IMG/VR virus record: IMGVR_UViG_3300035156_000119
Coordinates: 1-48,764 of that record
Direction: 5' to 3' (one strand)
DNA: 48,764 nt
From: a virus
Part shown: piece after piece, positions 25,153-28,020 of the stretch
How positions within the stretch are numbered: position 1 is the stretch's first letter
Layout: every line of letters begins with the position of its first letter
Position numbers and translations under genes: made by a program
Notes under the pieces: generated by a model
The model's database searches: none
Told to the model about the DNA's origin: nothing
What the model saw: the letters and a program-made list of their open reading frames with translations, nothing else

Positions 25153-25404
25153 ATGGATATTCAAAAATTGCGCAGGTTGGCCGAGGCTGCCACCCCTGGG
25201 CCTTGGGTGGTAAGCCGCTCCACTATTACACGTCCAGGCCAGGCCGCCGTGAAAGAGGTCGGTGCGTTTGACTGGATATGCAGCATGCAAATCAGCAATC
25301 AGCCGAACTGGGACAGGGACGCCGAATTCGTTGCGGCAGCCAACCCCGCCGTTGTGCTAGCCCTAATTGACAGGATCGCGGCGCTGGAATCAGGCCAATG
25401 CTGA
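25153..25404 (+). CDS. Small Ead/Ea22-type phage protein
   Basis: 83 residues. The start (MDIQKLRRLAEAATPGPWVV) and end (FVAAANPAVVLALIDRIAAL) are the widespread phage early-region pattern seen in Ead/Ea22-like proteins, whose function is unknown. Its end overlaps the integrase start by seven bases, so both are likely translated together. It could be an accessory factor for integration control. Confidence 0.7.
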   Translation: MDIQKLRRLAEAATPGPWVVSRSTITRPGQAAVKEVGAFDWICSMQISNQPNWDRDAEFVAAANPAVVLALIDRIAALESGQC

Positions 25405-26651
25405 CCGATACACAAATCAAGCGCGCCCTGCGCGATGTCGCAACCGAAGTCACCCTGAACGACGGCAGCGCGGGCAAGGGCACCGGCAGCTTGCGCCTTC
25501 GCATCCGGCGCAATGCGGGCGGCGTGTCGGCCACCTGGCTGGCTTTCTGGAAGCAGGACGGCCAGCGGGCAAGCAAGACCCTGGGCACCTACCCTGCCCT
25601 ATCGCTGACCGCCGCCCGCGACCTGTACGCCGACCAGGTGCGGCCAGTCCTACAGGCAGGCCAGAACCCGCGTGTGATCGTGGCGAAGACCGACCAGCCG
25701 ACGATCCATCGCATGTTCGAAGCCTACGTGGACAGCATGGGCGCAAAGGGCCGCGTCAGCGCAGAGGAAGTGCGCCGTGTGCTGCTGGTGGGCGAGCGCA
25801 GCGCCGCGCAGGTCATGGGGCGCACCAGGATGGCCGCCAGCGTCACGCCAGACGACGTGGTGCACTTCGTTGCCGGGTTCTACCGCCGCAACTATCGCGG
25901 GGCCGCAGACAAGGCCCGCAGCTACCTGGGCAGCGCCTTTAGCTGGGCGATGAAGGCGGCCAACGACTACACCAGGGAGGACCGGCAGGACTGGGGCATC
26001 AAGGTCAACCCGGTGGCCGCGATCCCCAGGGATGCCGGAGCCATCAACACCCGCGAGCGGGCGCTGTCTGCTGACGAACTGCGGTTCGTCTGGGCGAGCT
26101 TGGACGACAGCGAAATATCGGCCTGCATCCGGCTGCTGATCTGCTGCGGCCAGCGCGTGCAGGAAACGCTGCGCATCGACGCTGAGGAAATCGACCTGGT
26201 GGCGGGCACCTGGCACATGCCGAAGCACAAGACAAAGACGCAGCAGCGGCCCCACACGATCCCACTGCCAGGCCAAGCCGCGCCGATCCTGCGCGACCTG
26301 ATCGCCAGGCACCCGACTGGCCCGCTGTTCCCGGCGCGCAAGGGCAGCAAGTCGGCGCTGATATCGCACCGGAGCGTGAACCAGGCGCTGGGGCGCTGGC
26401 TGGCCTGGCCTGGCTGCCTGGTGGCCGACTTCCAAACCCGCGACCTGCGGCGCACCTGGAAATCGCGCACGCACGACGCTGGCGTGGATCGCTTCACCCG
26501 CGACCTGATCCAGCAGCATGCCAAGCACGACACCGGCAGCTTGAACTACGACCGCGCCGACTACCTGCCGCAGATGCGCCAGGCCATGAAATCCTGGGAA
26601 GTGTGGCTTGATCGAAATGTTATTGCACAGCGCGAATTAGCTGTGGCATAA
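25398..26651 (+). CDS. int: Tyrosine recombinase integrase
   Basis: 417 residues. The N-terminal arm-binding domain (KRALRDVATEVTLNDG, then SKTLGTYPALSLTAARDLYA) is the DUF4102 type of P4-like integrases. A core-binding region spans about 95-200. The catalytic domain has Arg253 (CCGQRVQETL), a Lys in the KHKTKTQQRP hairpin, Arg351 (RDLRRT), His374 (QQHAKHD) and the nucleophile Tyr384 (LNYDR). It catalyses site-specific integration and excision at the tRNA-Arg site just upstream. Its TAA shares a base with the next ATG. Confidence 0.95.
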   Translation: MLTDTQIKRALRDVATEVTLNDGSAGKGTGSLRLRIRRNAGGVSATWLAFWKQDGQRASKTLGTYPALSLTAARDLYADQVRPVLQAGQNPRVIVAKTDQPTIHRMFEAYVDSMGAKGRVSAEEVRRVLLVGERSAAQVMGRTRMAASVTPDDVVHFVAGFYRRNYRGAADKARSYLGSAFSWAMKAANDYTREDRQDWGIKVNPVAAIPRDAGAINTRERALSADELRFVWASLDDSEISACIRLLICCGQRVQETLRIDAEEIDLVAGTWHMPKHKTKTQQRPHTIPLPGQAAPILRDLIARHPTGPLFPARKGSKSALISHRSVNQALGRWLAWPGCLVADFQTRDLRRTWKSRTHDAGVDRFTRDLIQQHAKHDTGSLNYDRADYLPQMRQAMKSWEVWLDRNVIAQRELAVA

Positions 26652-26797
26652 TGAATGCCTTCGCTGCGAAAACTTCGGGAACTAACAGAGGAAGATCAAG
26701 CCGCGCCACACAGAAGTCGGCGCGCCGGAAGGCAACCGGCAAGAATTGCAGCAGAACAGAATCGCTGAATGACTTCATCCTTCAAGACGGCGACTAA
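26651..26797 (+). CDS. Small basic protein, unknown
   Basis: 48 residues, rich in Arg, Lys, Ser and Thr (NRGRSSRATQKSARRKATGK). The ATG overlaps the integrase stop (TAATG), the arrangement of a coupled gene. A basic peptide next to integrase might be a directionality factor, but no HTH is visible. Part of the DNA (GCCGG-AAGGCAA-CCGGC) can also form a hairpin, so it may instead belong to the structured RNA region downstream. Confidence 0.45.
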   Translation: MNAFAAKTSGTNRGRSSRATQKSARRKATGKNCSRTESLNDFILQDGD

Positions 26798-26810
26798 ATG
26801 GCTACGAAGG

Positions 26811-27217
26811 GTTGGCAGCCGGGAAAAAGCGGTTTTAGTGAGCCGACACACTCAATACGGGCAGTCCAATTGCTCTACGAGACTATAACTGTTCGAAGCA
26901 CGCCGATAGCCTCAGGGCGTAACCTGCGGCCCCAGAATTGCAGACGCAAAAAGTGTACGCCCTGGGGGTGGTTAAGGCTATGAGCAGTGGCCCCTTGACA
27001 GCCTGGAAAGACAGGCACCACACGCATGACGATTGCCGCGCTGGGCAAACAGCAGAGCCGTAAAAGGCTGTTCGCAGTCGTCAGGCGTGTGGTGCGCAGA
27101 ACTAAGCATCGCCGGGAACGGGGAGAATACCGAACACAGTCTATGACGCGGGAAGCCCGCCGAGACGCGCCGGAAACCGGCAATGGAGAAAGCCCCGCCT
27201 AACCAGCGGGGCTTTTT
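26811..27217 (+). ncRNA. Candidate large structured RNA of about 400 nt
   Basis: No convincing protein is encoded, but many long complementary arms are present. GTTGGC 26811/GCCGAC 26842. TAGCCT 26907/AGGCTA 26975 enclosing a perfect 9-bp CAGGGCGTA 26913/TACGCCCTG 26956. GCCTG 27001/CAGGC 27012. A 16-bp stem with one mismatch, CACCACACGC-A-TGACGA 27016-27032 with TCGTCA-G-GCGTGTGGTG 27078-27094. AACAGC 27048/GCTGTT 27067. GCGGG 27148/CCCGC 27156. GCCGG 27169/CCGGC 27177. It ends with a strong terminator. I do not recognise it as tmRNA, RNase P, 6S, SRP or a group I/II intron. Transcript ends are unknown; it may be read through from the integrase gene. Confidence 0.6.
27191..27217 (+). terminator. 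Terminator between integrase/RNA unit and leftward operon
   Basis: Stem AGCCCCGC / GCGGGGCT, loop of seven, five T on the plus strand. The minus strand also has a T-rich side, so it may end both convergent transcripts. Confidence 0.92.
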
Positions 27218-27218
27218 G

Positions 27219-27962
27219 CTATTCTTCGTCGGCGTCGCTGCCTTCGTCCGCGCCTGGCACTTCCATCGCGCCGTGCACTGGGCAGCACGCCCCCAGCTTC
27301 CGCGCCCACTTCCCCGACAGCCGCACCGTGTAGCCGCATGGCTCTTCGCCCATCCTGATGCTTCCGCTGCCGTCATCTGGAAGTCGCTTGTTTGTCATCG
27401 CAGTGCAGGCCGCCTTCAGCATCCTGGTCGTCTGCTTCGGCTTCGCATTGCTGCTGCCGCCGCGCTGGGGCGCTTCCTGGCCGTCTTCGCCCACCAGCTT
27501 GGCAGGATCGAGCGGGGCGCGCTTCGAACCGTACCAGGACAGCTTAGCGTGCGGCAGGGCGGCCAGGCTGTCGATCAACGGCTGGGCGTACGCCTTGAAT
27601 GCTTCGCCTGGCACCGTGCTGGTGAGCGGGCGCTGCAAGCCCAGAGCCAGCACCGTCTTCGCAAACGCGCCCTTGTGGCCGTGCTCGAACCCGACCGCCG
27701 CGTGCGTGAGTTCGTGCGCCAGATGGCCCGCGACCATCATGGCGTCTGCTTCGTCGGGGCGAATGTAAATCTGGTACGCGCCGTCCGCGCTGCAATTGGC
27801 GTTCCAGCATTCGGCAGCGGCGTTTCCGTCCTTGCCCGACGATGGGACGCCGATTGCAACGTGGAATTTCGGCAGCGGGAAGCCCAGTTCAGTAAAACGC
27901 GGGGCCATCAGGGCGGCCAGTTCGTTAAGCCAAGTTTCGCGGTTCATGGTGTCGTCTTTCAT
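27219..27962 (-). CDS. SprT-like zinc metalloprotease-like protein
   Basis: 247 residues. LAHELTHAAVGFEHGHKGAF contains HExxH and a following His, the zinc site of SprT-like metallopeptidases. The C-terminal part has a CCPVHG segment and an acidic end (DADEE). SprT/Spartan proteins act on DNA-protein crosslinks, and phages carry SprT-like genes in recombination operons. It is the last gene of the leftward operon, ending against the terminator. An in-frame ATG at 27947 could be the start instead. Confidence 0.7.
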   Translation of the reverse strand: MKDDTMNRETWLNELAALMAPRFTELGFPLPKFHVAIGVPSSGKDGNAAAECWNANCSADGAYQIYIRPDEADAMMVAGHLAHELTHAAVGFEHGHKGAFAKTVLALGLQRPLTSTVPGEAFKAYAQPLIDSLAALPHAKLSWYGSKRAPLDPAKLVGEDGQEAPQRGGSSNAKPKQTTRMLKAACTAMTNKRLPDDGSGSIRMGEEPCGYTVRLSGKWARKLGACCPVHGAMEVPGADEGSDADEE

Positions 27963-28020
27963 ATTGTTTAAACGGAGTAGACATCATGCCCTTTACTTCG
28001 TTTAAACGCAATGACCAGAC
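27963..28020. repeat. Two GTTTAAAC octamers before the SprT-like gene (copies 5, 6)
   Basis: Octamers at 27966-27973 and 28000-28007, 34 bases apart, in the intergenic region upstream of the minus-strand gene. This is the only place with two copies close together, which suggests a cooperative binding site near a promoter. No clear -10/-35 pair is visible in the gap. Confidence 0.8.

Follow-up and report, generated by a model that had tools for sequence, protein, structure and literature searches.

How the sequence between a phage integrase gene and the operon that converges on it is used is the question raised by this locus, which lies in a viral DNA of 48,764 nt, referred to here in its entirety as the window. 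The original prediction placed a large structured RNA at 26811-27217. We asked whether such an RNA exists, where it begins and ends, whether it has relatives and what it could do.

Results

Folding and boundaries of the RNA

The 407 nt from 26811 to 27217 fold at -175.4 kcal/mol versus -143.1 +/- 5.7 kcal/mol for shuffled sequence (z -5.67, with 0/100 shuffles as good), where 20 control windows of 407 nt each from the same contig give z values from +2.3 to -3.2. The claimed excess of pairing over chance is thus confirmed, and the arms that had been named are present. The long stem is composed of 27015-27025/27085-27095 and 27027-27036/27074-27083, with pair probabilities of 0.90 and 0.99, and the nested stem reaches 0.99. 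The strong terminator expected at the end of the interval is found as well, with a pair probability of 0.98. Of these arms, the long stem covaries in relatives, and the evidence for the stem at 26907-26980 is its predicted folding. A search for relatives of 26907-26935 returned L040 alone, where part of the segment sits on the other side of the conserved core described below. Near-perfect inverted repeats fold on both strands, and the reverse strand of 26811-27217 also has a low value (z -4.90), so that fold energy alone does not give the strand. Nor is it a reliable test of family membership on its own, given that L040, a family member, has a z of -0.68.

The structured region extends beyond the interval first proposed, which was too short: the conserved core lies at 26762-26812, and the likely transcript runs from about 26659 to 27217 (Table 1). 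A promoter scan of 26300-27400 returned a single promoter-like site, a sigma-70-like sequence at 26624..26652 (+) with an extended -10, TG before CATAAT and 9/12 matches. Its -10 element at 26647-26652 overlaps the integrase stop codon and predicts a start near 26659. Because the next operon is convergent, the window RNA has no gene in cis. Neither ARAGORN nor Rfam detects a tRNA, a tmRNA or a cloverleaf in the window, a search of the genome against itself finds a single copy of the RNA, and a similarity search of plasmid DNA gave short chance-level matches and nothing more. The window RNA is very probably a stand-alone product, that is to say, the RNA itself would be what the locus makes.

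Two observations concern the convergent operon. Its first gene is kept in L130, where tblastn places a 56% identical relative 3' of the RNA. Upstream of that gene in the window, GTTTAAACG occurs twice, about 30 bases apart, within 27970-28008, and may be an operator.

Table 1. Features of the RNA locus and its flanking genes in the window.
Feature	Coordinates	Strand	Evidence
Tyrosine integrase, upstream	25398..26651	+	phrog_1 integrase, E=1.5e-45; Phage_integrase and Arm-DNA-bind_3
Proposed non-coding RNA gene, about 560 nt	26659..27217	+	Promoter-like site, terminator, fold z -4.41 (26653-27217), covarying modules
Core, H-type pseudoknot CUGRAUGACUUC..CCUUCAAGACGG..UAAAUGNCNACGAAGGG	26761..26816	+	Covariance model without the window, 61.2 bits, E=2.5e-13
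Stem A	26762-26765 (UCGC) / 26790-26793 (GCGA)	+	Compensatory pairs across 54 cores
Helix B, 7 bp	26777-26783 (AUCCUUC) / 26806-26812 (GAAGGGU)	+	Strand-swap test
11-bp stem with inner hairpins (the nested stem)	26910-26920/26957-26967	+	Pair probability 0.99; folding only
GAAAGA hairpin GCCUG-GAAAGA-CAGGC, recurrent family module	27001..27016	+	Family versus control windows
Long insert stem, X 27017-27035 with Y 27075-27093	27017..27093	+	Covariation; X directly after GAAAGA hairpin
Intrinsic terminator	27189-27198/27206-27215, ends 27217	+	Pair probability 0.98
First gene of convergent operon	27219..27962	-	phrog_6361

A covarying pseudoknot forms the core of the family

The most conserved part of the RNA is a 5' pseudoknot that lies just outside the interval of the original prediction and had been overlooked there. 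Stem A closes a loop containing CUGRAUGAC...UUCAAGACGG, where mid-loop bases ending in UUC form helix B with a GAAGGGU-like partner located beyond the UAAAUGUC linker. The window carries this family-defining core, CUGRAUGAC..UUCAAGACGG..UAAAUGNC, with both stem A and helix B. Across 54 distinct cores, the three variable pairs of stem A are paired in 160/162 cells and use up to 4 standard pair types. Helix B reaches at least 6 bp in 45 of the 54, compared with a mean of 14.4 (maximum 21) after strands are swapped between phages. In a 39-sequence core alignment that excludes the window, 92.5% of cells are paired versus 72.1% when shuffled, and the covariation score is 0.517 versus 0.125, with slid partners scoring no higher than 0.133. 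The covariance model was built from this same alignment and then used to find the window.

The covariation of the pseudoknot, together with a model match at E=2.5e-13, identifies the element as an RNA and fixes its strand. Homologues display compensatory change in the pseudoknot, and the long stem covaries too; this covariation and the family of relatives support the presence of a large structured RNA in the gap that separates integrase from the leftward operon. Covariation of this strength means that the family core is definable now. The possibility that the core encodes protein (AUGACUUCAUCC... or AUGGCUACGAAG...) was rejected, as the spacer between its halves varies by non-multiples of three and the stem bases change in compensated pairs.

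Family members occupy several genomic contexts

A similarity search with the 50 bases at 26765-26814 matches N4-like lytic phages of Stenotrophomonas and Xanthomonas, where the matches fall in gaps beside or between the tRNA genes of a tRNA array and are unannotated in all but one record. Pattern scans of IMG/VR, filtered by the required stem, yielded 58 distinct loci with 54 distinct cores, and hence at least 54 versions of the pseudoknot. Hosts, where known, are mostly Pseudomonadota. Enterobacterial members include lambdoid phage mEp390, Salmonella phage PAT1, Klebsiella phages and E. coli prophages, and mostly carry the variant core CUGGAAGAGUU...UUGGAGACGG; DNA similar to part of one relative (L082) is present in 45/5,426 complete E. 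coli genomes. The strict core pattern gave two matches among GTDB genomes, one real (L029) and one due to chance (L030), and the pattern matches L016 and L021 were likewise discarded as chance. The window RNA almost certainly belongs to a real RNA family, previously uncatalogued, that is found in many phages and prophages. No earlier description was found in the literature searched, which was covered in part, and an earlier account may exist.

Inspection of the neighboring genes reveals four contexts: within the tRNA arrays of lytic phages; flanked by the repressor gene and the gene that opens the left operon, in lambdoid relatives and prophages; between portal and terminase genes, on the opposite strand; and 3' of integrase (the window, L040, L130 and L132). 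tRNAs lie within 3 kb at 17/58 loci, always on the strand of the RNA, versus 1/36 control chance-hit loci, and at three loci (L070, L012 and L014) a tRNA 3' end is 8-24 nt upstream of the core. A terminator occurs within 900 nt at 8/56 loci. Many others run on into protein genes, so that a leader role is possible at those loci. Three further records searched whole hold one RNA copy each. One phage contig (L117:1599-2015) has a permuted tmRNA gene with the tag ANDDSYRPQLRIAA some 240 bases 3' of the RNA core, and tRNA-Gly and tRNA-Trp come after it.

Within the integrase-adjacent subgroup, the integrases of L040, L130 and L132 share 45-56% amino-acid identity with that of the window and each is followed by the RNA. 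These sister integrases were found via their RNA loci; a search by peptide patterns returned no integrase relatives. All four RNAs have a terminator and carry GCATAATG just upstream of the core, and their bodies have little in common beyond the core. A lysogeny- or host-related role had been proposed from the position after integrase. Integrase adjacency marks this one subgroup, with other relatives in N4-like lytic phages, lambdoid left operons and among structural genes, so the proposal is not supported.

Variable modules follow the core

Beyond the core, conservation of the RNA is poor, such that no single full-length consensus structure can be drawn. A GAAAGA-type hairpin is present at 29/58 family loci versus 3/146 control windows. 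The 5' arm of the long stem begins directly 3' of this hairpin at 14/24 loci, compared with a fraction of 0.146 for random positions, and the window has this same family arrangement of the hairpin leading directly into the long insert stem. The window stem carries CAUG-NNN-AUUG and CAGU-N'N'N'-CA. Across the window, L008, L010, L015, L130 and L132, matching each 5' arm with the 3' arm closest to it gives complementary arms in 8/8 hairpins, which between them use 7 different triplets at NNN, versus 21/158 for swapped arms. One relative (L008:1280-2280) has one core and then several tandem insert-stem modules, as if grown by duplication.

The slot that the insert stem occupies differs in content among relatives. 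It is a plain hairpin without tRNA features in the window, a tRNA-like domain in L013, L017, L023, L024, L026 and L130, and a tRNA-Ser in L040, where ARAGORN or Rfam recognizes a tRNA cloverleaf inside each of these seven relatives. In some tRNA-like domains the anticodon arm has a 5-bp stem and a 3-nt loop in place of 7, and those domains should thus not decode. Five of them (L013, L017, L023, L024 and L026) combine the short anticodon arm with a long variable-loop insert. The domain at L024:4616-4734 has about 50 bases in its variable loop and is missed by ARAGORN but scored by the Rfam tRNA model. Near the 3' end of the same RNA, a 72-base module (L024:4877-4948) recurs with about 90% identity in N4-like phages of Achromobacter (L032-L036). 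The core model has no match in those phages; modules seem to be exchanged.

A further module links the family to an orphan motif. The 3' module of Salmonella phage PAT1 (L140:3384-3479) aligns end to end with Methylophilales-1 (RF03011) at E=0.0024 and 28.0 bits, against a gathering score of 79.9, and the two share the long identical stretches GAAUAAGGCA and UGCCGA-AUAGA. Methylophilales-1 is a 103-nt motif, whereas its PAT1 counterpart is one module of a much longer RNA. Rfam gives no Methylophilales-1 match in the window, where this module is absent. The outer stem of the PAT1 module uses a strand that could close the insert stem instead. A position-specific test found two alternative pairings at 9/24 loci, versus a fraction of 0.019 for random positions, and an unbiased test, which looked for any strand with a choice of two partners, did not exceed chance. 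Together these results suggest, as a lead only, that some family members have two alternative pairings.

Comparison with known RNA classes

Against Rfam (the copy current on 30 September 2026), the window matches no family at its gathering score, and matches at E<=10 are only noise, in agreement with the original prediction that the RNA falls in no known class. Rfam finds no HEARO, OLE, group I intron, tmRNA or RNase P in the window (nor does ARAGORN a tmRNA), and the GOLLD and ROOL models have no match in the window or in the three relatives given low-threshold Rfam scans (L024, L142 and L140).

The GOLLD and ROOL RNAs of phages, whose function is not known, occur near tRNA islands and form RNA-only cages, and the GOLLD linker sometimes holds tRNAs (PMC12286853). 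The present family resembles GOLLD in being a large phage or prophage RNA associated with tRNA islands, with a variable region able to hold tRNAs and an elaborate secondary structure that includes kissing or pseudoknot elements (PMC12286853). It resembles ROOL as a phage RNA of similar length (about 660 nt for ROOL) that lies near tRNA islands and has a variable linker (PMC12286853). The tRNA proximity and the tRNA in the linker are true of relatives and not of the window. GOLLD has a conserved 3' domain and often exceeds 800 nt, whereas the family described here has a small pseudoknot near its 5' end, an RNA of about 560 nt in the window and members mostly in proteobacterial phages. No conserved sequence or architecture was seen in common with ROOL. 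Moreover, published GOLLD and ROOL models are full-length, in contrast to the absence of a full-length consensus here. The likeness is one of setting and design and does not amount to membership in either class.

The put RNA of phage HK022 consists of two stem-loops and acts on both early operons. In its lambdoid members, our family likewise places a compact and conserved RNA where the left operon begins. It differs in having a pseudoknot rather than two stem-loops, in the terminator that belongs to the window RNA itself and in the one copy per record searched. The window RNA does not head an early operon on which it could act in cis, a position held in the lambdoid relatives only. Hammerhead and pistol ribozymes also have small conserved folds in which some unpaired bases never vary, and pistol likewise includes a pseudoknot. 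Models of hammerhead, pistol, twister and the other Rfam ribozymes gave no match above chance.

Discussion

The best overall reading, which we hold tentatively, is that the window encodes a stand-alone RNA of about 560 nt, that large phage RNAs built from modules form a new family to which it belongs, and that this RNA is a scaffold of the GOLLD/ROOL kind. The scaffold function itself is drawn by analogy and is possible, if somewhat doubtful. In its sequence, the 5' pseudoknot is followed by variable structured modules, including the GAAAGA hairpin joined to the insert stem. The pseudoknot could then serve as a fixed docking element for another RNA copy, the ribosome or a protein, while the remaining RNA would be a scaffold that evolves fast and, as the phage develops, presents or protects a cargo of tRNA type or a hairpin. 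A more specific version is imaginable but has a low probability: a new natural class of RNA machine in phages, with no sequence relationship to GOLLD or ROOL, where the universal 5' pseudoknot nucleates a possibly multimeric scaffold and an exchangeable arm holds or mimics a tRNA. In some relatives, a conserved strand would pair either with this arm or with a downstream Methylophilales-1-like module, such that the arm could open and close.

Other functions have to be weighed against a scaffold. The tRNA-shaped arms may act as decoys that absorb host tRNA-cutting or tRNA-sensing enzymes, such as anticodon nucleases and related defences, and thereby shield phage translation. Such a role fits the association with tRNA arrays, the fast change of the slot and the five tRNA-like domains that pair a shortened anticodon arm with a long variable-loop insert. 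It is nevertheless unlikely, in that the slot of the window is a plain hairpin, L040 holds a full tRNA-Ser, and selection is strongest on the pseudoknot and not on the tRNA-like arm.

The conserved core could instead be a 5' leader acting in cis, such as a processive antiterminator of the put type or a regulatory aptamer, and the remaining RNA would then be incidental. In favor of this reading, a small conserved pseudoknot precedes variable sequence, the lambdoid relatives place it between the repressor and the start of the left operon, the site of action of N or putL, and ORFs begin within about 300 nt in L009, L060, L105 and L112. For the window this reading is weak, because its own terminator ends the RNA and because three further records hold a single copy, whereas put serves both early operons. 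The RNA is ended in the same manner in L040, L130 and L132, nothing follows in cis in the window, and covarying modules are found far downstream of the core. We regard a cis-acting leader as quite unlikely.

Improbable, too, is a processing element or self-cleaving ribozyme that separates the units of a tRNA or RNA array by means of a catalytic or protein-recognized pseudoknot. The small pseudoknot with many invariant unpaired bases and the tRNA 3' ends close before three cores are features that such an element would have, but no Rfam ribozyme matches above chance and the single-unit locus of the window presents no obvious need for cleavage. Lastly, an origin without any function as RNA, be it chance, inverted repeats that matter only in the DNA or the remains of a tRNA array, which GC-rich phage DNA and a reverse strand that also folds well might suggest, is refuted by compensatory changes in the pseudoknot over dozens of phages and in the long stem of the window, and retains almost no probability.

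Large structured phage RNAs are few, with GOLLD and ROOL as examples whose function is open, and the family described here appears to add one. The orphan Methylophilales-1 motif may be one piece of a longer RNA made by phages. Members reside mostly in proteobacterial phages, including lambdoid phages of E. coli, where deletion and direct assay are feasible, and the slot filled by a tRNA offers a concrete handle on why such RNAs accompany phage tRNA genes.
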